A stretch of 43,207 nt of DNA from NCBI GenBank assembly GCA_001029295.1, contig LDXJ01000033.1, positions 1 to 43,207 on the forward strand. The letters are read 5' to 3'. Source of the DNA: Peptococcaceae bacterium CEB3 (GTDB taxonomy: Bacteria; Bacillota; Desulfitobacteriia; Desulfitobacteriales; Desulfitobacteriaceae). The notes below the pieces were generated by a model. That model was not told the origin of the DNA. It worked only from the letters and a program-made list of their open reading frames with translations, and made no database searches. Made by a program: the position numbers and the translations under genes. Below, piece after piece: positions 10,500 through 42,972 of the stretch (the stretch's first letter is position 1; each line of letters opens with the position of its first letter).

Positions 10500-11252
10500 C
10501 TATTCTGATGTTTCAGCTTCCTCGAACCAAGAAATATTCGTTGTCAAAACATTGCTTTTGTTAGCGAGATTCTTTAGGCAAAACGTGAGACTGTTGCCCT
10601 CGGACAGAATCAGGCGTCCTTGATAATCAATCATGACAGGGCCTTCGGCCTGAATAAATGAACTAAGCAACTGCCCGCCTTCTTGTACCGCGTTGTTCCT
10701 AATAGCATACTTTATGGTCACAAAGCTGCTGTCATTAAAGCCTGTATTTAAGTTCCGCGGGGTTAGAGCAACGCCGGGACAAGCGAGCGGCATGTTTCGG
10801 CAAATGTCAATGGATGTATTTCCACTAGAGCCGATTGAAGTCGTTGAAAGGCATATGACTCTCTCGGATCTGAAAGGGTTCACAAACTCCAGCAAAAGGT
10901 AATCTTCGACTTCGAGCACCTGGAGACCGGTTGTCACTGTGTAATACCCTTGATCGGTGCGCTTCCGTGACAACTCCACCTGGCCGACCGTTGTACTCTC
11001 AATCCTTCTACGAAACATGTTGGCCGTTTCGGGGTTAGAAAGAATGGACAACCGCAAAAGATTGGAGTTTATTTCCCGGATTAAGGTCCGATTTACATAT
11101 CCCTTATTTTCAATGGCATCAAAAACCTCTTGAAGGTGTTGAAGCCGTTCCACGACTTCTTCAATAGACCTTTTGTTTTCACTTCGCAAACGATTAAGTT
11201 CCCGCAGTTCGCTTAACATGAGTAGCAAGGCCCTGTCGTCTACATTTTCCAC
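10500..11252 (-). CDS. Hypothetical protein with coiled-coil N-terminus and DUF6143-like domain
   Basis: About 250 residues. Start chosen at GTG 11252 because GGGAGG lies 9 bases upstream; the ATG at 11261 abuts the same ribosome site. Residues 5-55 are Leu/Glu/Arg rich with heptad character (LSELRELNRLRSENKRSIEE). The rest is rich in beta-type sequence, has no membrane segment or signal peptide, and ends NISWFEEAE. The layout recalls DUF6143 proteins of spore formers (a VNP/FVNPF segment, hydrophobic middle, late W-E-E). I recall no experimentally defined function. Lying between an activase-like gene and a CotJC-like gene, a spore-surface role is possible but unproven. Confidence 0.6.
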   Translation of the reverse strand: MENVDDRALLLMLSELRELNRLRSENKRSIEEVVERLQHLQEVFDAIENKGYVNRTLIREINSNLLRLSILSNPETANMFRRRIESTTVGQVELSRKRTDQGYYTVTTGLQVLEVEDYLLLEFVNPFRSERVICLSTTSIGSSGNTSIDICRNMPLACPGVALTPRNLNTGFNDSSFVTIKYAIRNNAVQEGGQLLSSFIQAEGPVMIDYQGRLILSEGNSLTFCLKNLANKSNVLTTNISWFEEAETSE

Positions 11253-16751: not shown

Positions 16752-17804
16752 TCAACTTCGGCTGTTTCTGGCTACACGGATCATTGCCAGCAGGTTTTCC
16801 TGGGGTGCGTACATTGGAACCTCACACCCGGAACCCAAAATCAACCCCCTGGGACCGGCATTCGAGATCACCTGCGCTGCCGCCTGCTCCACTTCTTCAA
16901 CTGTTCCTTGCAACAAAAGCGCAGACGGGTTCAGATTACCCATTAGACAAACACGCTCACCGACCCTTGCCTTAGCCACTTTCATGTCGACTTTGTAATC
17001 AAGCTCAAGGATTTGAGCCCCGGTATCTGCCATCAGATCCAAAACGGCAGTGTTATTGCCGCAAATGTGCAAGAGCGTCATCGCACCCCGTTCTTTAGCC
17101 AAGGGACCGATCTCTTTAAAGAAGCGCTTTTAAGCAAATTTTTTGTACGTATCGGGGGATATCACATCCCCTGAAGCTAACGAATCGCCTGCCTGAACCA
17201 TCTGCGCACCTGATTCCAAGCATGCCTTGGCAAAGGAAAACAACGCTTCGGTTGTCAAGTCCATCAATTTCAAAAGGTATTTTTCTGCTTCACCCCCTGG
17301 CTCCATAGAGGCTGTGGCCAATTCTATTAAAAACTGGTTAGTTCCCATTAGATGTGAAGCTAAGGATAAGGGGCCGGTTCCAGGGGCTCTAACCACCACT
17401 CGCTCTCCGACCAGTTTTGCCAGACGTTTTATCGCCTCTAAATAGATGGGCATACGCCCGTCTGTGTATGGATTGGGGACTTTCAAGCGGTCAATATCCT
17501 TCAATTCGTTGACAACAGGTGTCTTGAGAGTGGGCGTGCCATTGGGATGATGCTCAACGGTTATGCCAAATCCTTCCGCAATATAGTAGTTGTCCGATTG
17601 AGCTACGACGGCATCTTGTTGATAGATTTGCCAAGCCTTATACTGAGCTTCTGCCATCAATTCGCTTGATTGGCAATACTTGTCAATTGAAACCCCGGCA
17701 ACCGCCGCCCCGTGGTTACCCATATAAGGGGCTACCGGAATACAATCAGATTGACCTAAGTCAACCGCACGCCTTATTCTCTCCAAGGAAGTCAATGAAC
17801 TCAT
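16752..17804 (-). pseudogene. URO-D family corrinoid methyltransferase (MtaA-like), interrupted by an in-frame stop
   Basis: ATG 17804 with GGGGGTG six bases upstream opens a URO-D protein that starts MSSLTSLERIRRAVDLGQSD. At 17130 a TAA follows YKKFA, and the same frame continues KRFFKEIGPLAKERG, MTLLHICGNNTAVLDLM and ILGSGCEVPMYAPQENLL to 16752. Paralogues read F-x-LPY-x here, so a short in-frame deletion or nonsense change is likely. It is the only URO-D copy in the window with both HxC and the later Cys of the MtaA zinc site. TAA is not the pyrrolysine codon. The 116 codons upstream of the ATG are not coding. Confidence 0.8.
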
Positions 17805-18876: not shown

Positions 18877-20025
18877 CTACCATTCGGCGATGCTACCATC
18901 CGCATGGCGCCAGATTTCATTATGCCAGTTATGCCCAATAGCAGCCATCCTCCGGACGTAATCTTCGTTGATTTCGATGCCCAAGCCGGGGCCCTGCGGA
19001 ATCCGAACGAATCCTTTCTCATAAGCGAAAACCGCCGGATCCACCAAGTAATCGAGCAAGTCACCACCCTGGTTGTAGTGAATCCCCAGGCTCTGTTCCT
19101 GAATAAAAGCGTTGTGCACCGTGGCATCCAACTGAAGGCAAGCTGCCAGAGCTATTGGACCGAGGGGGCAATGGGGAGCCACAGCCACATCAAAGGCTTC
19201 GGCCATGGACGCGATTTTCTTACATTCCGTAATCCCTCCCGCATGGGATACATCCGGCTGAATGATATCTACATAACCGTCAGCCAGCAGAGACTTATAG
19301 TCCCAGCGGGAAAACATCCTCTCTCCCGTGGCAATGGGTATTGCGGTATGGTTGGCAATTTCGCGCAACGCTTCGTTATTTTCAGGTAAAACCGGCTCTT
19401 CGATAAACAGAGGATGATAGGGTTCCAGCTCCTTCGCCAGAACCTTGGCCATGGATTTATGCACCCTGCCATGGAAATCGAGTCCGATGCCCATGGATTT
19501 GCCGGCTTCTTCTTGAATAGCCTGCACCCGACGAAGAACGTCTTCCACTTTGGTAAAAGAGTCAATGTAGTGCATTTCGGCGGTCGCGTTCATTTTAACG
19601 GCCGTAAAGCCGCGTTCTGCCATCTTCTTTGCGGCCCGACCGACATCCGCCGGACGGTCTCCACCAATCCAGGAATAGACACGCATAGAATCACGGCAAG
19701 CCCCACCCAGTAATTGGTAAACAGGGACTCCCAAATACTTTCCTTTAATATCCCAAAGCGCCTGATCAATCCCCGCTATGGCGCTCATTAAAATAGGGCC
19801 GCCCCGGTAAAACCCTCCCCGGTACATCATCTGCCAATGATCTTCAATCCGTAGGGGATCCTTCCCGATCAGGTATTCACAAAACTCCTTAACGGCCATC
19901 GCCACGGTGGCTGCTTTGCCCTCGACCACCGGTTCCCCCCAACCGCTGATACCCTGGTCTGTTTCCAACTTAAAAAACAGCCAGCGAGGAGGAACCTGAA
20001 AAAGTTCCATCTTGGTTATCTTCAT
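18877..20025 (-). CDS. dgoD: D-galactonate dehydratase (mandelate racemase/enolase superfamily)
   Basis: 382 residues from ATG 20025. It matches E. coli DgoD throughout: [116 protein letters not shown] and a C-terminal HADGSIAEW. Asp/His of LDFHG, Glu of IEEP and Glu of GER fit the metal and acid-base positions of the family. Reaction: D-galactonate to 2-keto-3-deoxygalactonate plus water. It is the last gene of iclR-kinase-aldolase-dgoD, 117 bp after the aldolase. A near relative substrate such as another aldonate cannot be excluded. Confidence 0.9.
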
Positions 20026-20142: not shown

Positions 20143-20793
20143 CTATCTACCCTGGCGAGCCTCCCGGATCTTTTGCAGGAAAGCATCTGTCAGAGCCGTG
20201 ACTTCAGAAAACCTTCCCTCGTTGGCCGGAGCCGTTATCTCCCCGCCCACGCCAACCGCCGTCGCCCCAAAGCGGATCCAATCGCCGACATTCTCAAGGG
20301 TTACGCCCCCTGTGGGTACTAGCCTAGCTTGGGGGAAAGGGGCACGGAGGTCTTTAGCAATGTGCGGTTGAAAAGCCGAGGCCGGAAAAAACTTGATTAG
20401 GTCCGCCCCAAGCGTCAGGGCCTGTTGTATTTCTCCCGGGGACATAGCTCCTGGTACACAAGGAATCCCGTAGCGTTGACAAAGCCGAACCGTATCGGGT
20501 TCGAGTGCCGGGCAAACGACGAATTGGGCTCCAGCTAAAACTGCCGCACGGGCAGTTTCCGAATCCAATACCGTTCCCGCACCAATAAGGACATTCCTCT
20601 CTTTATATTCCTCAGCCAAGTCCCGTAAAAGCCCAGCCGCAGCCGGTACCACAAAAGAAACCTCAATCACCTCGGCGCCCCCCGCCGCGATGGCCTGCAC
20701 GGTTTGCCGGGCCAAAATCGGATCCGATGTCCGGACAATCGCGATGAGCCCCCCGCGGATGATTCTCGCCAAGATATCTTCCTTACTTAACAC
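20143..20793 (-). CDS. KDPG/KDPGal aldolase (bifunctional Eda/DgoA type)
   Basis: 216 residues from GTG 20793 (AAAGGAG nine bases upstream; the open frame continues to 20817, into the kinase gene). IRGGLIAIVRT, GGAEVIEVSF (catalytic Glu), GAGTVLDSETARAAVLAGAQ, LIKFFPAS (Schiff-base Lys) and VPTGGV are the class I KDPG aldolase hallmarks. Reaction: 2-keto-3-deoxy-6-phosphogluconate or -galactonate to pyruvate and glyceraldehyde 3-phosphate. In this operon it would take the product of the adjacent kinase. Gene overlap and spacing suggest coupled translation with the kinase. Confidence 0.92.
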   Translation of the reverse strand: MLSKEDILARIIRGGLIAIVRTSDPILARQTVQAIAAGGAEVIEVSFVVPAAAGLLRDLAEEYKERNVLIGAGTVLDSETARAAVLAGAQFVVCPALEPDTVRLCQRYGIPCVPGAMSPGEIQQALTLGADLIKFFPASAFQPHIAKDLRAPFPQARLVPTGGVTLENVGDWIRFGATAVGVGGEITAPANEGRFSEVTALTDAFLQKIREARQGR

Positions 20794-20807: not shown

Positions 20808-21758
20808 TTAACGACAAATCGTCCCCACTCCATTCAGCAAAGTCATAACCTCGTCAAGACTTGGCAGTCCTTCCACGTCTCCATTCACTGTCACAACATG
20901 CGCTCCGGCGGCATTACCCAATCTTGCACACTGAACGTCGGGCCATCCTTTCAGCACGCCGGTTAAGAACCCGGCAGCGAAAGCGTCTCCGGCTCCGATG
21001 GGATCGACCACTTCCTTAACCGCATAACCCGGAATGCGGACCATCCGTTCTTTGTCGGCAACCAGGCAGCCCTTGGCACCTTCTTTAACGATCACTCTAC
21101 CGGCACCGTGCTCCCAGGCTTTCTGGGCAATCGCTGACGCTTCCTCGACCTCAAACAGGATTTTCCCTTCTTCAATGCCCGGCAAGAAGATGTCTACCGC
21201 AGGCAAGAGTGCGAGAACCTCTTGCCGGGCCTCCTCTATCCCCCAAAGCTTTAGGCGTAGATTCGGATCGAAACTGACAAGCATCCCCGCTTTCTTGGCC
21301 ACGGAAACGGCTGTGTGGACCGCTTCCCGGCAGGAGGAACTGAGGGCTAAAGAGATCCCGCTGACGTGGAGGATTTTCGCCCCTCGAAAGTAGGAAGGCT
21401 CAATGTCACCAGGGCCCAAATGGCTGGCCGCGGAACCCTGTCTATAGTACGCCACCTTGCTCTCCGCCCCATTGCGCAGTTCCTTGAAATAGATCCCGGT
21501 CGGCGCACCGGCCTCAAATTTAACCTGTGAGGTGTCAACCCCTTCCCCGCGGATAAAGGATAGGATATGGCGGCCAAACTCATCATTACCCAAACGGCTG
21601 ATCCACCCGGACGAGCCTCCTAATCGAGCCACACCGACCGCCACGTTGGATTCCGCACCCGCAACTGTTCGAGTGAAAAGAGCGGCATGACGCAAAGGTC
21701 CTTTAAGCAGTGGCACAAAAGCCACCATCGTTTCTCCCAAAGTAATAACATCAGGCAT
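20808..21758 (-). CDS. kdgK: 2-keto-3-deoxygluconate/galactonate kinase (PfkB family)
   Basis: 316 residues from ATG 21758 (AAGGAG seven bases upstream; the longer open frame overlaps iclR and is rejected). VITLGETMVAF, GGSSGWISRLGNDEFG and the C-terminal DPIGAGDAFAAGF give the two PfkB signatures, with the catalytic Asp in GAGDAF. YFKELRNGAESKVAYYRQGS is KdgK-like. Reaction: ATP-dependent phosphorylation of 2-keto-3-deoxy sugar acids. In E. coli the galactonate pathway uses the unrelated DgoK, so a PfkB enzyme fills this step here. It begins 1 bp after the iclR stop codon. Confidence 0.9.
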   Translation of the reverse strand: MPDVITLGETMVAFVPLLKGPLRHAALFTRTVAGAESNVAVGVARLGGSSGWISRLGNDEFGRHILSFIRGEGVDTSQVKFEAGAPTGIYFKELRNGAESKVAYYRQGSAASHLGPGDIEPSYFRGAKILHVSGISLALSSSCREAVHTAVSVAKKAGMLVSFDPNLRLKLWGIEEARQEVLALLPAVDIFLPGIEEGKILFEVEEASAIAQKAWEHGAGRVIVKEGAKGCLVADKERMVRIPGYAVKEVVDPIGAGDAFAAGFLTGVLKGWPDVQCARLGNAAGAHVVTVNGDVEGLPSLDEVMTLLNGVGTICR

Positions 21759-27992: not shown

Positions 27993-29045
27993 TCAAAACA
28001 TGCCCGCGCTTACGGTAGAGGCTTCCCTTAAGGCATCGATGTTTTCCAAAGGAACCTCGCTGGTAATGCCTTGCGCAGGAGCGATAATATAACCACCACC
28101 CCTGCCCAGAACAGCAACCGTATGATAAACCTCGTCCCTAACTTCCTGCGGTGTACCCCGGGACAGGGCACCCGCAGTGGAAATTCCCCCATAAAAGGTT
28201 AGGCGCTCACCATACTGGTCTTTTAGAGCTCTAATATCCATAGCGTCTGGTTGGACGGGGTTCAGGATGTCTAGTCCCATATCCGCAAAATCTCCGATAA
28301 TCGGCGTCACATGACCACAGGTGTGATGCATGACTGGTACTCCCGCTTCTTTATATACATTCCAGATACGTCGCAAGCGCGGTTTGATCAGATCCCGCCA
28401 CAGCTCGGGTGCAAACAGCATACTCGTTTTACCGCCATAATCATCACCTGTGCGACCACAGGCCACACCCGCTTGAACATACCGTTTGGCTATAGCCACT
28501 TGATAATCTGTTATCTTATCAAGCAGCGTCTCCACAAAATCCCGGCGCAAAACCAGATCCATTAAGAAGTTCTCCAGTCCCCGCAGGGCCCAGGCTCGCT
28601 CAAACAGGCAATAAGCCTGATAGGAAGTCACTAGATAATCCCGACCGAATTCAGCAACCGTCTTTTGCGCTCGCTCCAGCAGGCCGGGAGCCCAAGGATC
28701 CGGAAATTCGTAACCCGACCAACCATCGAGATCGGCTAAAGGGTGAACAACGGCCAGAGGACCCTCCTGGTAGTTGTTCCAACCGACGCACCAAGCATCA
28801 TAGCTCACTTCGTCACTTCCCAGTTTCCGGGCTTTGATGTTGCCGAAAGCATCGTCAAGATAGGCATAGACGATATGGTTGTCAAGGGCCGTGATGATTT
28901 CCCTCCCTCCTGAGGGCAGACCCCAAGCTTTTGCCACCTTGTCGAGGCCGACCCCCGAGAAATCCATCTGAATCGGTAGGCGATCAATTTCTTGTCGTTT
29001 TATGGTCCGTAAAGCACGCTCCTTGGGAGACATCCGGCTGCTCAT
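27993..29045 (-). CDS. URO-D superfamily methyltransferase coupled to GarR-like gene
   Basis: 350 residues. SPKERALRTIKRQEIDRLPI is the classical URO-D start. LRGLENFLMDLVLRRDFVET, APELWRDLIKPRLRRIW and VMHHTCGHVTPIIGDFADMG (H-x-C) follow. The distal Cys is absent (YIIAPAQGITSEVPLENID), but the E-V-P-L-E-N end typical of MtaA-like proteins is kept. The start codon overlaps the stop of the GarR-like gene by 4 bp (ATGA), so the two proteins are made in step. This coupling links methyl transfer to a sugar-acid dehydrogenase. Confidence 0.85.
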   Translation of the reverse strand: MSSRMSPKERALRTIKRQEIDRLPIQMDFSGVGLDKVAKAWGLPSGGREIITALDNHIVYAYLDDAFGNIKARKLGSDEVSYDAWCVGWNNYQEGPLAVVHPLADLDGWSGYEFPDPWAPGLLERAQKTVAEFGRDYLVTSYQAYCLFERAWALRGLENFLMDLVLRRDFVETLLDKITDYQVAIAKRYVQAGVACGRTGDDYGGKTSMLFAPELWRDLIKPRLRRIWNVYKEAGVPVMHHTCGHVTPIIGDFADMGLDILNPVQPDAMDIRALKDQYGERLTFYGGISTAGALSRGTPQEVRDEVYHTVAVLGRGGGYIIAPAQGITSEVPLENIDALREASTVSAGMF

Positions 29046-30063: not shown

Positions 30064-30219
30064 TCACCTGTTCTTTAAGTTATCCTGCGCCACGCCTAGC
30101 AGAATTACCCAACCAATGCTAGCTGTTTGCACTTCGAAGGGAACTTCCAGCGGTACAAACCCGTCGATTGACCCTCTGACGTTAAAACCGCTAAAAACAC
30201 CTTGGCTCCTAATAACCAT
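30064..30219 (-). CDS. Possible small protein overlapping the end of the URO-D-like gene
   Basis: ATG 30219 lies inside the last codons of the upstream URO-D-like gene and opens 51 codons beginning MVIRSQGVFSGFNVRGSIDG, with a hydrophobic stretch TASIGWVILLGVAQ, ending at TGA 30064. GAAAGG lies only 3 bases upstream. The overlap would allow coupled translation. No family recognised, and it could be chance. Confidence 0.25.
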   Translation of the reverse strand: MVIRSQGVFSGFNVRGSIDGFVPLEVPFEVQTASIGWVILLGVAQDNLKNR

Positions 30220-31405
30220 AAACCTTTCGGACGTAAGCGTTCAGTTTCTTGGCTCTGGATACCGACGGAGCCACAATATTTAGAAAAATACCTCGACAAG
30301 GAAGGTTATCTCTGATAGTTTTTATATCTTCCTCGTCCAAATCACCCCATATAACTAAACTTTTCTTCTCCATTATTCTGCGAAATACGGACATCATTTC
30401 CCGAACCGACGGTCCCCCGACATCCTTGTTGATCTCTATTGCCTTTAGATCGTCGATTCTTAACAGGTCATCAAGGATAAACAGCGAGGCCGGATGAAGA
30501 TGAACGAGTGAAAAAGGATAAGCCCGACATATTTTCTCGTCGCACAGCAGGAAAAATTCGCGATAAAGAGAAGGCGAGCACAAGGCTGAAAGATCTTCTT
30601 GAAACCACACACATTTCTCGGGAGTCCAGATAGGGTAAAAGCCCATACAGTAACCTCCTAGGAACTCCGGCACCGTAGCCAGAAAAGACGATATTACGTG
30701 GAGAAATGCATTCGTCACCGTCAAAGCCAACTTCTTCATGACCTCGGGATAGTCGTATAGACAATACACTAGGTTATCCTGCCCTAACATAGCCCCCAAC
30801 GTATCCGACGGCCCTCGCAGGACCGGTTGTCCGAGCGGAAAACGTCCATCCGACAATTCTGTTAATTGACTGGTAAATTCATTGAACTTCATAAGCCAAG
30901 GGTTATCGCTTTCAAGTTTCAACGGTTCCAAAGCCTGCGGATCCGAAGCAAAGGATTTAGCCCAAAAGCTTTCTTCACTGCTATATATGTCGCAGCCCAG
31001 CATACCTTCTATCCAAGGTATTCCTGTAAACGGTTCGGCTGTCCAAAAGGCTTCCTGCCCAATGCGCAAATTGTCCTGATACATTCTCTCATAGTCCGCC
31101 ATATACTCGTCTGTGGAAATTAGTTCTGGCGTAATTCTCTGCCCGCGAGACAGGAGAGGCATAGCTGCGTCGAACGTACGGCTAAAAAAGAAATCCCTGA
31201 GCCTAAAACCAACCAACGGATAACCCTGTTCTCTTTTTTGCCAAAAGACCTGATGCCGACTTACCCGTTCGTGCAACAATACGGCTTCCGCATTCCCTTT
31301 CCATTTAACAGCCTCCCTCCTATACACAGCTATCCCCGTATAGTCATACCACCTCAGAATTAACCGATCATGGTTCCTACTACTACACAAGGCTACTGGA
31401 GGCAT
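30209..31405 (-). CDS. URO-D-superfamily protein lacking the H-x-C zinc motif; start uncertain
   Basis: Open frame of 398 codons. It is related to URO-D proteins by fold-type landmarks (RGPSDTLGAMLGQDNLVYCL, SPSLYREFFLLCDEKICRAY), but the place of H-x-C-G reads SLVHLHPASLF, without cysteine. Homology seems to begin at VKWKGNAEAVLLHERVSRH, coded from 31309. There a perfect AGGAGG sits 6 bases before a GTT, not a normal start codon. GTG 31327 or ATG 31405 are alternatives, and a strong AGAGGGGGAG near 31430 precedes a 9-codon frame. Methyl transfer is doubtful without zinc ligands; a different activity in the same pathway is possible. Confidence 0.65.
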   Translation of the reverse strand: MPPVALCSSRNHDRLILRWYDYTGIAVYRREAVKWKGNAEAVLLHERVSRHQVFWQKREQGYPLVGFRLRDFFFSRTFDAAMPLLSRGQRITPELISTDEYMADYERMYQDNLRIGQEAFWTAEPFTGIPWIEGMLGCDIYSSEESFWAKSFASDPQALEPLKLESDNPWLMKFNEFTSQLTELSDGRFPLGQPVLRGPSDTLGAMLGQDNLVYCLYDYPEVMKKLALTVTNAFLHVISSFLATVPEFLGGYCMGFYPIWTPEKCVWFQEDLSALCSPSLYREFFLLCDEKICRAYPFSLVHLHPASLFILDDLLRIDDLKAIEINKDVGGPSVREMMSVFRRIMEKKSLVIWGDLDEEDIKTIRDNLPCRGIFLNIVAPSVSRAKKLNAYVRKVYGY

Positions 31406-34961: not shown

Positions 34962-35918
34962 TCAACGGACGACCCTTGAACTATAGGCCAGTACTTTGTC
35001 GCATGCCTGGACCACCGCCTCGGCCGTAAGATGATAATGACTCAGCAAGTCCTGATAACTAAGTGCCGATTGACCAAACATATCATTGACCCCAACGAAT
35101 TCAATCCGGATGCCTGCCTCTGCCCTTAAGGCTTCCGAAACAGCCGAACCGAGACCACCAATAATGTTGTGCTCTTCCGCGGTTACCACGGCGCCCGTTT
35201 GCAAGGCCAAACTCACTACGGCCTGAGTGTCCAAGGGTTTGACCGTGCTCACGTCAGCGACGCTGACTTCTATTCCTCTGCGCGCCAAGACTTCGGCCGC
35301 TTCCAGGGCCCGGCTCACCATCACTCCGTTGGCGAACACCGTGACATGTCGGCCTTGGCGAAGCTGATATACCTTACCAATGATAAACTCTTTTTCCTCC
35401 GGGAATACTAAAGGCAGATCGTTGCGGTTCAATTTCAGATAAACAGGTCCCCGGTACGATGCAATTGCCTCAGTTGCTTTGGCTGTCTCAGTCGCGTCCG
35501 CCGGCACAATCACCGTCATATTCGGCAAACTGCGCATGATAGCGACATCCTCAACGGACTGGTGGGTCGCGCCGTCTCCGTAATCGGAAAACCCGCTGGA
35601 CGAGCCGATAAGTTTCACATTGGCCTTCGCCAGCGCTACCCCGACCCGAATTTGGTCATAGGCTCTACCAGATAGGAAGACGGCAAACGAGTGAACAAAG
35701 GGAATTTTGCCGCCGAGGGCCAATCCGACCGCCACCGAAACCATATTTTGCTCCGCAATACTCATCTCAATGTGGCGTTCCGGAAAGCGCGCCTCCATCA
35801 GATCTCCTTTGGTCGATTTGGATAGATCGGCGTCCAAAGCTACAATCCGCTTGTCTTTTTCCGCTAGGGTCACCAGAGTCTGCCCATAGGCCTCTCTCGG
35901 GTTAATGGCTCGAGTCAT
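34962..35918 (-). CDS. Transketolase, C-terminal subunit
   Basis: 318 residues. It has the pyrimidine-binding and C-terminal domains: IVALDADLSKSTKGDLMEAR, PERHIEMSIAEQNMVSVAVG (catalytic Glu in SIAEQ), GDGATHQSVEDVAIMRSLPN and HNIIGGLGSAVSEAL. With the subunit upstream it makes a complete thiamine diphosphate transketolase split in two, as is common in Firmicutes and archaea. It starts 3 bp after the N-subunit stop, whose last codons hold its ribosome site (AAGGTG). It transfers a two-carbon ketol unit between sugar phosphates or analogues. Confidence 0.93.
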   Translation of the reverse strand: MTRAINPREAYGQTLVTLAEKDKRIVALDADLSKSTKGDLMEARFPERHIEMSIAEQNMVSVAVGLALGGKIPFVHSFAVFLSGRAYDQIRVGVALAKANVKLIGSSSGFSDYGDGATHQSVEDVAIMRSLPNMTVIVPADATETAKATEAIASYRGPVYLKLNRNDLPLVFPEEKEFIIGKVYQLRQGRHVTVFANGVMVSRALEAAEVLARRGIEVSVADVSTVKPLDTQAVVSLALQTGAVVTAEEHNIIGGLGSAVSEALRAEAGIRIEFVGVNDMFGQSALSYQDLLSHYHLTAEAVVQACDKVLAYSSRVVR

Positions 35919-35921
35919 TTC

Positions 35922-36761
35922 TTAATCACCTTCTATCATTTGCTCGGTTAACAATAGCGCCTCTTGGTACTGCTCGGCATTGAGTGCGGCATTGTGAAAA
36001 GCTGCCTTACCTTCCGCAAAGGGAAAACCTTTACCTTTAATGGTATTGGCGATGATGGCCACCGGACGTTCACTCACTTTGTCCGCCTCGTCCAGGGCAT
36101 AGGCGATTGCTTTGACGTCGTGTCCATCCACCTCCATTACTTCCCATCCGAACGCTTGCCACTTGGATTGGATATCCCCGCTGTCCATCCGTTCGGAGAT
36201 AGGACCCGTAGCCTGAAGGCGGTTTCGATCGATGATCGCAACTAAATTGTCGGCTTTGTAAGCAGCTGCCGCCATCGCCGCCTCCCAGATCTGTCCCTCA
36301 GCCAACTCCCCGTCGCCAACGAGGACATATACCTTGTTGCTTTGCCCGTCCAGCTTGTGGGACAGTGCCAAACCCAAGCCTACGGACAGTCCCTGTCCCA
36401 ATGAACCGGTGTTTGCTTCAATTCCCACCGTTTTCCGCATGTCCGGGTGACCTTGCAAGTGAAAACCAAGCTCTTTGTTATGCCTCAGGTCCTGGCGCGG
36501 AAAATAGCCGCATTCGGCCAGAGCCGCGTACTGAGCCAGTGCGGAATGCCCTTTGCTCATAATGAAATGGTCTCGCTCAGCCCATTGCGGCTCTTTCGGA
36601 TTATGACGCATTTTATAGAAATAGAGTACCGTGACAATTTCCACACTGGAACTTGATCCCCCTAGATGACCCACCTTCGGTGGTTCAAGCATTTCCGCAA
36701 TATCGCGGCGCAGCTGGGCCGCTTTTCGCCGGAGATGCTTTTCTTCTGCTACGTCCAACAT
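35922..36761 (-). CDS. Transketolase, N-terminal subunit (TPP-binding)
   Basis: 279 residues. HLGGSSSSVEIVTVLYFYKM, SKGHSALAQYAALAECGYF, GSLGQGLSVGLGLALS and the thiamine diphosphate motif VGDGELAEGQIWEAAMAAAA, closed by LVAIIDRN (GDG...N). The length is that of stand-alone N-terminal subunits. It lies between an alcohol dehydrogenase and the C-subunit gene, in a likely operon gntR-adh-tktN-tktC. A second, specialised transketolase pair beside catabolic genes suggests cleavage of an unusual ketose (phosphate) rather than the housekeeping pentose pathway; that is inference. Confidence 0.93.
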   Translation of the reverse strand: MLDVAEEKHLRRKAAQLRRDIAEMLEPPKVGHLGGSSSSVEIVTVLYFYKMRHNPKEPQWAERDHFIMSKGHSALAQYAALAECGYFPRQDLRHNKELGFHLQGHPDMRKTVGIEANTGSLGQGLSVGLGLALSHKLDGQSNKVYVLVGDGELAEGQIWEAAMAAAAYKADNLVAIIDRNRLQATGPISERMDSGDIQSKWQAFGWEVMEVDGHDVKAIAYALDEADKVSERPVAIIANTIKGKGFPFAEGKAAFHNAALNAEQYQEALLLTEQMIEGD

Positions 36762-36841
36762 CTGGAATACCTTCTTTCACTCGACAGCTTCGACATGGTA
36801 CCCACAAAGCAGATCTTTTTTCCCGGCCATTCTAGCCAAAC

Positions 36842-37876
36842 TTACGGAACCAACACGACTTTGATGCCCTGAGATTTCTCAATCACCTCGAAACCCCTCT
36901 TCCAATCTTCAATTGGTAGCTCGTGGGTGATAAGCTTGCTCAGGTCGACCTGGCCCTCGGCCATTAGTGTGAGACACTTCTCCCACACATCCCAGGTATG
37001 GCTGAAACATCCCTGCAAACGTGCAGATTTTGCTATTAACTGATCTAGGGAGAAATTTACCGGCTCCGGTCCCCAGCCGATTTTAGTAATTTGACCCGCC
37101 GGACGCACAATCTCGAGCGCCAACTTTAACGTTGCGGACGGTCCAGCTGTATCTACCACCAAATCCGCACCATATGCATCGCCTATACTCATGACCAGCT
37201 CAGCTATATTTTGCTTACTGCTCTGGACCGCCTTGGTCGCTCCCAATTCCAAGGCCTTGGCCAACCTTTCCTCGTCGCCGTCCGACCCTACTACAATGAT
37301 CTCCCCGGCACCCTGCAATTTGGCCACTGTGGTACATAGCAACCCGATCGGACCGGGCCCGATTATCACCACGAAGTCTCCGGGGTTAATCCGGCTATAT
37401 TTAACCAAGGCGTTATACGCTACACACAGCGGTTCCGTCAGGGATGCATCACGCAAACTAACATTGTCCGGAACTTTGTGTAGGATTCGGGACGGAACGG
37501 AAACATATTTTGCAAATGCCCCGTCCACCCCGAAGCCAAATCCTTTGCGTTCACGGCACAAATGGTAGCGATTTGTTCTGCACATTGCGCATTTGCCGCA
37601 ATAACGGGCGTGAGTTTCAGCGGTGACCCGCTCACCAGCCACCCAATCACGGACATTAGATCCGACCTTGGCGATTATTCCCGAAAACTCATGGCCTAAG
37701 ACCAGCGGCACCGCAATCGGGTAAGACACATCTTGATGATGTATATGGGGGTCACTTCCGCAAATGCCGATATAGGCAACCTCCACCAGCACATCATCGG
37801 GCCCTATTTCTGGAACCGCCATGTCCCGAATTTCGGTGCATCCGTCTTGGTTCGCGTATTTTACCACTGCTTTCAC
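36842..37876 (-). CDS. Zinc-dependent alcohol dehydrogenase (threonine/sorbitol dehydrogenase-like MDR)
   Basis: 344 residues from GTG 37876, chosen for TGGAGG eight bases upstream; the open frame to 37969 overlaps gntR. YIGICGSDPHIHH and VLGHEFSGI carry catalytic zinc ligands. CGKCAMCRTNRYHLC is the structural zinc loop. VVIIGPGPIGLLCTTVAKL is the NAD site. It starts 59 bp before (inside) the gntR 3' end region, so the genes overlap in sequence and are surely co-transcribed. Expected role: oxidation of a sugar or polyol to a ketose that the transketolase could cleave. Exact substrate unknown. Confidence 0.9.
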   Translation of the reverse strand: MKAVVKYANQDGCTEIRDMAVPEIGPDDVLVEVAYIGICGSDPHIHHQDVSYPIAVPLVLGHEFSGIIAKVGSNVRDWVAGERVTAETHARYCGKCAMCRTNRYHLCRERKGFGFGVDGAFAKYVSVPSRILHKVPDNVSLRDASLTEPLCVAYNALVKYSRINPGDFVVIIGPGPIGLLCTTVAKLQGAGEIIVVGSDGDEERLAKALELGATKAVQSSKQNIAELVMSIGDAYGADLVVDTAGPSATLKLALEIVRPAGQITKIGWGPEPVNFSLDQLIAKSARLQGCFSHTWDVWEKCLTLMAEGQVDLSKLITHELPIEDWKRGFEVIEKSQGIKVVLVP

Positions 37877-37934
37877 CGGTTCAACCTCCACTTTTTCCTT
37901 CTCTATTTCTTTGCTTTCTCCACTGAGAAAAGAG

Positions 37935-38645
37935 CTAATTGCTCTTTTTATCCGGATACTTCTCTGCAATATCCTTGATGGTGAAGTCTATATGCTCTGC
38001 CATGATTTTGGCTGCTGCTTCGGCATCCTGTAATTCGATCGCCCGAAGAATTCTCGGATGATAGTGAAGGGCATCTTTTGCTCCTCTGAAGGCGACAATT
38101 TCCTTCATGTGCGAACGCAAAAGATTTTCTGTCATTTGAGCTACTAGTAGAATCAACGAGTTCTTAGTTATATTGGCTAGTTCGGCATGGAATGCAAAAT
38201 CTTCAATCGCAAATTGGGCGAGATCTCCCTGCGATTCTTTCATCCGTTCAATAACTGCGTGAAGGTTGGCCAACTCTGTATCCGTACGCCGGATCGCACT
38301 TAGGCGAGCGTTTTCGATTTCAAAAATGCGCCGGAACTCCAAGATCTCCAACAAATCGTGCTTACCCAGCGCCAAAGCCGGCAGGAGTAAATTACGTGCG
38401 ACTACTTCGTGCGAAGGATCGGATACGAAGTTTCCCTCGCCCTGTTTTGTCTCCACCAAACCCAGGATACTAAGCTTTTGCAAAGCGGCCCGCACGGAGA
38501 TTCGGCTTACCCCAAACATCTCCGTAAGCTCGTGCTCGGAAGGCAATCTTTCGCCTGACCTCCAATTTCCAGCCATAATTTGCTCGGACATTTGTTCGAA
38601 TACAGCGTCACTAATGTTTACCTTTGGTATCTTTTTGATTGGCAT
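37935..38645 (-). CDS. GntR-family regulator, FadR subfamily (FCD domain)
   Basis: 236 residues. Winged helix: VFEQMSEQIMAGNWRSGERL, PSEHELTEMFGVSRISVRAA, LGLVETKQGEGNFV. The FCD effector domain contains the metal/ligand residues in EDFAFHAELANITKNSLIL and YHPRILRAIELQDAEAA. First gene of the probable gntR-adh-tktN-tktC unit. A consensus promoter 390 bp upstream carries a palindrome fitting the FadR-type operator, suggesting autorepression relieved by a pathway intermediate. The ribosome site (AAGGGG) is 13 bases before the ATG, rather far. Confidence 0.92.
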   Translation of the reverse strand: MPIKKIPKVNISDAVFEQMSEQIMAGNWRSGERLPSEHELTEMFGVSRISVRAALQKLSILGLVETKQGEGNFVSDPSHEVVARNLLLPALALGKHDLLEILEFRRIFEIENARLSAIRRTDTELANLHAVIERMKESQGDLAQFAIEDFAFHAELANITKNSLILLVAQMTENLLRSHMKEIVAFRGAKDALHYHPRILRAIELQDAEAAAKIMAEHIDFTIKDIAEKYPDKKSN

Positions 38646-39012
38646 AATTGTTCATTTACCCCTTCTTGTCTACTTTTGGCCCTTCCCTACTGATCGACCG
38701 ACCAAACAAATTCTTCACTTTCGTCACCAGTATTCACCCCCTAAACCTGCGCTAGGGACGGTATCCCTAAGATTCGAAACAGTGTGCTACTGTCGCTGAT
38801 TATAAACCCCCATTATACTTATATGTTGTCCTACAAGGTCAGCAAATTCAAGCCGATATCTTTTGTGTTCTTCATGGAGGCGTGAGTGTAGCTGAAAATT
38901 TCCGCGAAACATTGTCGAATCTTATGCGAAGCATTAGCAAAAAAACTGCATGCTTCATGCCTTACAAAACCGGCGTCCTGATAAGTTGTAATACAACTTA
39001 CATCTTGGCCTA
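38646..39012 (-). other. Long untranslated leader of the gntR operon
   Basis: Some 360 nt between the predicted transcription start (about 39006) and the GntR ATG. A 67-codon open frame (38831-39034) would need a TTG lying inside the promoter spacer, so translation is unlikely. No riboswitch could be recognised. Confidence 0.4.
38983..38999. promoter_or_regulatory. Palindromic operator, FadR/GntR type
   Basis: AAGTTGT-AAT-ACAACTT, perfect 7-bp arms. Its core TTGTAATACAA fits the T-N-G-T-N3-A-C-N-A consensus of FadR-subfamily GntR regulators exactly. It sits just downstream of the predicted start of the gntR transcript, a position suited to blocking initiation or early elongation. Confidence 0.65.
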
Positions 39013-39041
39013 ATTCTAATACTTCCTCTTGCAAAAGTCAA
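39013..39041 (-). promoter_or_regulatory. Consensus sigma-A-type promoter of the gntR operon
   Basis: Minus strand: TTGACT (39036-39041), a 17-bp spacer, then TAGAAT (39013-39018). Predicted transcription start near 39006, directed toward gntR. Confidence 0.7.
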
Positions 39042-39153: not shown

Positions 39154-39471
39154 TTAGAACGAGCGCCAATTTTGTCCTACTGCATGGGTGATGAAATTCG
39201 CCGTCTCCGGCGGCTTCAGGATCCTTTCCCAGTAGCCACGGTCGCGGTACGAGGCAACGAGGTTCACCCAGCGGAACCATGTCTCTTCTTCTGCGATGGC
39301 GTGAATTCCTTCGCCGATTCTCTCAATCACGAGGTAGTCGTAAATGCCTTGGTCAAAGCCACCCCTGTTTTCGTTGACCGCAGATAGGGCTTCCTGCCTA
39401 TTCCGGTAGTAGCCGAGACATCTTGATTTGTGAGACGGGTTAAGGCTGGTTAATCCTGTGATGAAGTACAT
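39154..39471 (-). CDS. Small conserved-type hypothetical protein
   Basis: 105 residues with a good ribosome site (AAAGGAG before the ATG at 39471). The sequence GIYDYLVIERIGEGIHAIAE followed by EETWFRWV resembles a common clostridial/phage small-protein type seen beside mobile genes; I know no function. No membrane helix or cysteine cluster. It is isolated from the metabolic operons by a terminator (39577-39604) upstream and the gntR promoter region downstream. Confidence 0.6.
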   Translation of the reverse strand: MYFITGLTSLNPSHKSRCLGYYRNRQEALSAVNENRGGFDQGIYDYLVIERIGEGIHAIAEEETWFRWVNLVASYRDRGYWERILKPPETANFITHAVGQNWRSF

Positions 39472-39576: not shown

Positions 39577-39604
39577 AAAACCCCGTTGCCGAGAACGGGG
39601 TTTT
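39577..39604. terminator. Bidirectional Rho-independent terminator
   Basis: AAAACCCCGTT (39577-39587) / AACGGGGTTTT (39594-39604), perfect 11-bp arms with a 6-base loop. In the minus direction it closes the aldolase-aldA transcription unit. Confidence 0.8.
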
Positions 39605-42588: not shown

Positions 42589-42972
42589 TTAAAACACTTC
42601 TGAGGTTTCAACCAAAAGCTGTTTAATTCTATCGACCGCAGTGCCTGCATCGGACGCATAACCGTCCGCTCCAATTTGGTCGGCAAACTTTTGTGTTACA
42701 GGAGCTCCGCCAACCAAAACTTTGACTTCTCGCCTCAGCCCTTCCTGTTCTAGGGCTTTTATAATCTGTCCCATTTGTGGCATGGTCGTTGTGAGCAAAG
42801 CTGACAGTCCTAAGAATTGTGGCTTGTGTGCTTGAACAGCAGCCACAAATTTGTCTACTGACACATCAACGCCTAAATCGATAACTACGCAACCAGCCCC
42901 CTCAAGCATCATGCCTACTAAGTTCTTACCAATATCATGTAAACCTCCATCTCGCCGCTGTCGCGGCGACAC
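42589..42972 (-). pseudogene. Corrinoid protein copy D, 5' truncated at the B12 motif
   Basis: The frame gives the B12-binding domain from LHDIGKNLVGMMLEGAGCVV through TTTMPQMGQIIKALEQ and GGAPVTQKFADQIGADGY. The cap domain and the Asp of D-x-H-x-x-G (GDLHDIGKN in copies A and B, GGLHDIGKN here) are gone. Upstream bases (MSPRQRRDG) are unrelated. It is diverged from copies A-C (for example VDVSVDKFVAAVQAHKPQFL), so it is a different subgroup. The break coincides with the start of foreign-looking DNA, suggesting an insertion. Confidence 0.75.
42951..42968. repeat. GC-rich inverted repeat at the break of corrinoid copy D
   Basis: TCGCCGC-TGTC-GCGGCGA forms a perfect 7-bp-arm hairpin a few bases upstream of the surviving corrinoid coding sequence. 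It may be part of the end of an inserted element. Confidence 0.5.

Follow-up and report, generated by a model that had tools for sequence, protein, structure and literature searches.

The leader of the gntR operon carries a 19-bp perfect palindrome, S1, which is very probably the operator by which the FadR-type product of the first gene represses its own operon. We consider it likely, with good confidence, that this regulator represses gntR together with adh-tktN-tktC through S1, as the main site, and through a second site, S2, and that it would be released by a ligand of its FCD domain. The arrangement is of the normal FadR-subfamily type, an ordinary gene switch. Compared to an earlier note on this DNA, the present analysis adds the second candidate operator and the footprint of the motif across families. 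It offers a concrete pair of candidate operators for a FadR-subfamily regulator, along with a short motif shared across families.

Palindrome, promoter and operon

The window comprises the entire contig C33, 43,207 nucleotides long, from a 5.3-Mb assembly of 64 contigs; the features discussed here are collected in Table 1. The earlier note had described a perfect palindrome following a TTGACT-17-TAGAAT promoter. The palindrome it gave, AAGTTGTAATACAACTT at 38983-38999, is present, but its length has to be corrected, as it extends by one base more on each side (38982-39000). The core, TTGTAATACAA at 38986-38996, fits the T-N-G-T-N3-A-C-N-A rule as that note had claimed, and the promoter hexamers are found ahead of the palindrome on the minus strand (39041-39036 and 39018-39013). 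This candidate promoter, P1, agrees with the consensus at 10 of 12 hexamer positions, and 16 nt of the minus strand separate its -10 hexamer from the TTGT of S1. With a gntR start at 38645 and a transcript start predicted at about 39006, the leader would be about 360 nt long.

Table 1. Positions of the candidate operators, promoter-like hexamers and operon genes in the window.
Feature	Position	Strand	Basis
gntR, FadR-subfamily regulator (GntR HTH + FCD), 236 aa	37935..38645	-	ORF and profile matches
adh, Zn-dependent alcohol/polyol dehydrogenase ORF	36842..37969	-	ORF and profile matches
tktN, transketolase N-terminal half	35922..36761	-	ORF and profile matches
tktC, transketolase C-terminal half	34962..35918	-	ORF and profile matches
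S1, candidate operator, 19-bp perfect palindrome TAAGTTGTAATACAACTTA	38982..39000		Palindrome search; matrix rank 1 in window
P1, -35-like hexamer TTGACT	39036..39041	-	Promoter scan
P1, -10-like hexamer TAGAAT, 17-nt spacer	39013..39018	-	Promoter scan
S2, candidate operator, core TTGTCCTACAA (38826-38836)	38823..38839		Exact-motif search and matrix scan
TATAAT, -10-like hexamer of possible P2	38812..38817	-	Sequence inspection; weak

Two further elements lie close to S1. A short hairpin resembling a terminator, GCATG-AAG-CATGC (38948-38960), has a T run behind it on the minus strand; it is located about 45 nt past the predicted P1 start and could attenuate P1. The flank TTAC(C)ATCTTGG(G)CC beside the palindrome (39000-39016) is common to the window and genome G262 (L084, near 11110-11130), with the opposite orientation relative to gntR in the two.

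The gntR product consists of an N-terminal GntR winged HTH (PF00392, 67.4 bits against a cut-off of 27) and a C-terminal FCD ligand-binding domain (PF07729, 72.3 bits against 24.3). As both are present, the regulator belongs to the FadR subfamily, in agreement with the earlier assignment. It stays below the curated cut-offs of the NCBIfam NanR, LldR and PdhR models (135.4/260, 96.9/311 and 92.5/330 bits, respectively). Following gntR, the minus strand encodes a zinc dehydrogenase and then two transketolase halves. The true start of adh is probably a GTG near 37876, a placement taken from the aligned G176 homologue. An inverted repeat, AAAAGAGC-N5-GCTCTTTT (37928-37948), spans the gntR stop codon and precedes adh; it may act as a weak terminator between gntR and adh. 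Upstream, 508 bp separate the gntR start from the end of a 105-aa ORF (39154-39471), which is situated between the two operons and has no Pfam or NCBIfam match. A further inverted repeat of 11 pairs with A and T tracts (39577-39604) may terminate the aldehyde dehydrogenase operon and would separate it from the gntR operon.

We postulate that the FadR-subfamily regulator, whose gene lies just downstream, uses S1 as its main operator. A dimer on S1 would cover the first transcribed bases of P1, thus blocking initiation or promoter escape, and a second dimer on S2 would add repression, either by covering a possible promoter P2 or by acting as a roadblock. The regulator would thereby repress its own gene plus the adh-tktN-tktC genes read with gntR, and would be released when its FCD domain takes up a small ligand, an acid or a sugar-acid-like compound. 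Binding, repression, start site, promoter use, co-transcription and ligand are features that we infer from the computed sites, protein family and motif recurrence.

A palindrome at the 5' end of a transcript may also act as an RNA hairpin instead of an operator, and the predicted leader fold indeed gives a stem of 9 bp closed by a loop of 3 nt at this position. The leader, however, folds no better than shuffles (z -0.54), nor does any Rfam family attain its gathering score between 38500 and 39700, and on these grounds we reject an RNA element in the leader. As the relatives retain TTGT...ACAA, or one of its halves, and not the outer arms, we regard the hairpin as a very improbable explanation of the palindrome and retain the operator reading.

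The second site and the contribution of chance

The earlier note had missed S2 (TTGTCCTACAA). This second site lies nearer to gntR than S1, with a centre-to-centre distance of 160 bp. S1 and S2 are the only exact matches to TTGTN3ACAA (the strict motif) in the 43-kb contig, against 0.74 expected per shuffled window, and two strict sites were obtained in 2 of 20,000 leader shuffles. The promoter P2 near S2 is a guess, because the promoter scan of the window makes no call there. The best -35 candidate, CTGACC (38837-38842, minus strand), stands at a long spacer of 19 nt, the upstream 11 nt of which are filled by the S2 core.

Taken singly, the palindrome, the loose motif and the promoter pair are not rare. 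The expected number of perfect 8-1-8 palindromes per shuffled window is 0.82, and 174 of 20,000 leader shuffles contain one. For the loose motif T-N-G-T-N3-A-C-N-A, the window has 9 occurrences where 6.9 are expected, and promoter-like pairs are not enriched, with 3 in the window against 5.2 in shuffles. These counts are what would favour a chance palindrome beside a chance promoter. It is the combination that stands out, because the leader holds a second strict site and the motif recurs before the gntR genes of relatives; a coincidence is, in our estimate, extremely improbable.

The window was scored with a matrix derived from six sites in other genomes, with the window sites left out. Over all window positions, it places S1 first (25.1 bits) and S2 second (13.4 bits), followed by a position in coding DNA (11.0 bits), a ranking that is partly built in and not fully independent, as the six sites were chosen by the published consensus. 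The S1 score is reached by 0 of 3,000 leader shuffles and the S2 score by 28 of 3,000; support for S2 on its own is moderate.

The presence of two strict sites in one leader, with centres 160 bp or about 15 helical turns apart, raises the question of whether the dimers on S1 and S2 join into a tetramer, with the leader looped between them; this would go beyond simple occlusion. We consider this doubtful: the distance corresponds to about 15.2 turns at 10.5 bp, nothing found here points to a tetramer, and the site-bearing relatives have one site upstream of gntR, the second site of G431 being located beyond its gntR. Occlusion at S1, with S2 as an additional site, is the reading we prefer.

A motif search across the genome, which the earlier note had proposed for defining the regulon, gave pattern counts near the control counts. 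Over the genome, TTGTNNTACAA has 28 strand matches, compared to 23 for the backwards control; these fall at 26 distinct places, 18 of them inside ORFs of at least 90 codons and 8 outside, the latter comprising the two window sites and six intergenic ones. A looser pattern gave 137 + 139 matches against 118 + 107 for the control, among the matches listed. The 19-bp S1 has no further match in its own genome at up to 3 mismatches, a uniqueness that says little because the backwards control itself has only 2 + 2 matches.

Motif recurrence at related regulator loci

The nearest regulators in the phylum sample are those of G176 (63% identity) and G262 (61%), followed by others at 43% and below. At E <= 1e-34, this sample has matches in 17 of 398 genomes, own genome included, with up to 7 candidates scored per genome. 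Among the matches listed for 60 relatives, the full-length ones do not exceed 36% identity, and G004 has two partial ones at 42%. The class (82 genomes) contributes three non-self matches at E <= 1e-30 with 33-36% identity, and one contig scan for the regulator yielded 3 loci, the best at 33%. The class of G176 (2/22) and the order of G100 (2/17) added one locus, L094 (42%). A separate eight-site matrix, which included the window sites, was used for scoring the related loci. L094 is without the strict motif; its best matrix scores, 10.2 (-288) and 10.0 (GACTTGTCATACGACTT, -70), are close to 10.1, which is the 99% level for random sequences of 400 bp.

With L094, the complete phylum sample of 18 non-self loci gives a set of 19. 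At four of these loci, which all come from other families within the phylum, the 400 bp ahead of gntR include the strict motif, compared to a shuffle mean of 0.103 and 0 of 3,000 shuffles reaching 4, the motif having been chosen after the results for the window and the first relatives were known. This recurrence, which carries the most weight among the new results, and the first rank of S1 in the matrix scan lend support to the FadR-type operator and the autorepression that the earlier note had predicted.

The sites differ in their distance to the regulator gene. G262 has GTAGTTGTAATACAACTTA, its TTGT 66 bp before gntR, while in G100 (36% regulator) TTGTAATACAA starts 36 bp before gntR and is preceded by TTGACA-17-TACAAT and 10 nt, a layout much as in the window. 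G431 (36%) has TTGTACTACAA 29 bp before gntR and a second site, TTGTTCTACAA, between gntR and an enolase-superfamily dehydratase gene; G165 (38%) has TTGTATGACAA at -216. In G176, TGTAAGTTGTATTACCAATAT is found just ahead of the first ORF of a gene run (ORF-gntR-TRAP transporter-adh-tktN-tktC-tartronate semialdehyde reductase homologue), and this site is left out of the four, since the run does not begin with gntR and one base departs from the strict motif. The first ORF of the run is a homologue of the window ORF 30209-31405, neither of them having a Pfam match at E <= 0.001. A near-match, AAGTTGTACTACATCTT, at -215 of the second G423 locus (L080) was left out of the matrix. Ten related regions hold 8 strict sites in total, of which 4 are upstream of gntR, 1 is the G431 site between gntR and the dehydratase, and the remaining 3 are at L083 8282 (inside an ORF), L088 9046 and L089 15096. 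Promoter scans made no call at the G262 and G431 sites and none adjoining the G176 site.

The gntR-transketolase clusters of G096, G304, G359 and G423 (C32) have no strict site upstream of gntR and are among the 15 loci of the set that lack it; in the G423 cluster, TCGTAGAACAA, between gntR and tktN, matches the loose form. Among 33 further homologues of about 29-36% identity, the loose motif is seen at one. With the window gene included and the short partial match L060 left out, the loose motif is present at 2 of 34 loci against 3.6 in mononucleotide shuffles, the upstream stretches being 125 bases for L058, 336 for L030 and 450 for the rest. The motif-bearing regulators share similar recognition helices (VSRISVR-ALQKL and the like); L066 and L067 have a similar helix, yet no good site. 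As a predicted operator, the motif belongs to a narrow group of regulators alike in their recognition helices and not to the wider family, since the strict form is absent from the 400 bp upstream at 15 of the 19 related loci and from all 33 of the more distant homologues.

This distribution also bears on which protein would use the sites. The same genome contains at least 17 matches to the regulator, itself included, and FadR-type operators look alike, so that another FadR-type regulator might act at S1 and S2 in place of the adjacent gene product. The motif, however, recurs beside relatives of the adjacent regulator in other families of the phylum, and we consider a different regulator unlikely. 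The product of gntR is therefore kept as the putative ligand-responsive repressor in what follows.

Surrounding genes and comparison with known systems

A long minus-strand gene run extends from 14151 to 42972. It encodes URO-D-type proteins at 17130, 27993 and 33663 (Pfam), a B12-binding protein at 42589, an enolase-superfamily dehydratase at 18877, a KDPG/KHG aldolase at 20143, a PfkB kinase at 20808 and, above the NCBIfam cut-off, a tartronate semialdehyde reductase at 29042. As a whole, the run looks like a corrinoid-linked sugar-acid catabolic island. The combination of gntR, tktN-tktC and a tartronate semialdehyde reductase homologue, found here with 34962-38645, recurs at L083, L088, L090 and L091, where adh joins it in L083 and L091; these recurrences are in genomes of other families. 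When the other 81 genomes of the class were searched for the dehydrogenase, none gave a match at E <= 1e-80. Because the cluster recurs in other families and its dehydrogenase is unmatched in its own class, the gntR-tkt cluster was probably acquired by horizontal transfer.

It is conceivable, although we lean against it, that the regulator, the operator and the dehydrogenase/split-transketolase/tartronate-semialdehyde-reductase cassette are a horizontally moved, self-regulating unit for an undescribed anaerobic route. This route is perhaps the catabolism of O-methylated sugars or sugar acids, an idea suggested by the neighbouring genes for URO-D-type proteins and a B12-binding protein. If this holds, the operator would report the substrate of the undescribed route. 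A search of the literature on this gene combination gave no usable paper, and the available portion of the main text of PMC10418091 mentions neither transketolase nor GntR. The ligand is the question of interest, since the surrounding genes suggest a catabolic route. Ligand screening on S1 would therefore offer a way to the substrate of the neighbouring pathway, in which transketolase halves are combined with corrinoid-methyltransferase-type genes.

The consensus of FadR-subfamily operators, according to the accessible parts of two reports, is TNGTNNNACNA or TKGT-N3-ACMA (PMC2230225; PMC4494728). By pattern match, both predicted operators fit TNGTNNNACNA, and S1 differs from the consensus only by its long, perfect outer arms. 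GntR1 and GntR2 of Corynebacterium glutamicum are likewise regulators with a GntR HTH and an FCD domain, and the same partial source describes their action at sites 1-2 mismatches from TNGTNNNACNA (PMC2230225). These two form a redundant pair acting on several gluconate/glucose genes, whereas one local site pair is established in the window.

The nearest parallel in layout is DgoR of E. coli, a FadR-subfamily regulator of the D-galactonate dgo operon, which is encoded by the first gene of the operon that it represses. In the part of PMC12288454 at hand, DgoR represses dgo via two inverted repeats over the promoter, with TTGTAGTACAA as the IR1 core; the same core is also found in K-12 DNA upstream of dgoR. 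In contrast to the window, dgoK-dgoA-dgoD-dgoT are located downstream instead of adh-tktN-tktC, and the repeats are closely spaced, while S1 and S2 are 160 bp apart. The DgoR protein is distant from the window regulator. A DgoR-like core, TTGTANTACAA, in two repeats is nevertheless found here, as S1 is the same save for the centre and S2 reads TTGTCCTACAA. Between the IR1 core TTGTAGTACAA and the S1 core TTGTAATACAA, the central base alone differs within the 11-bp core.
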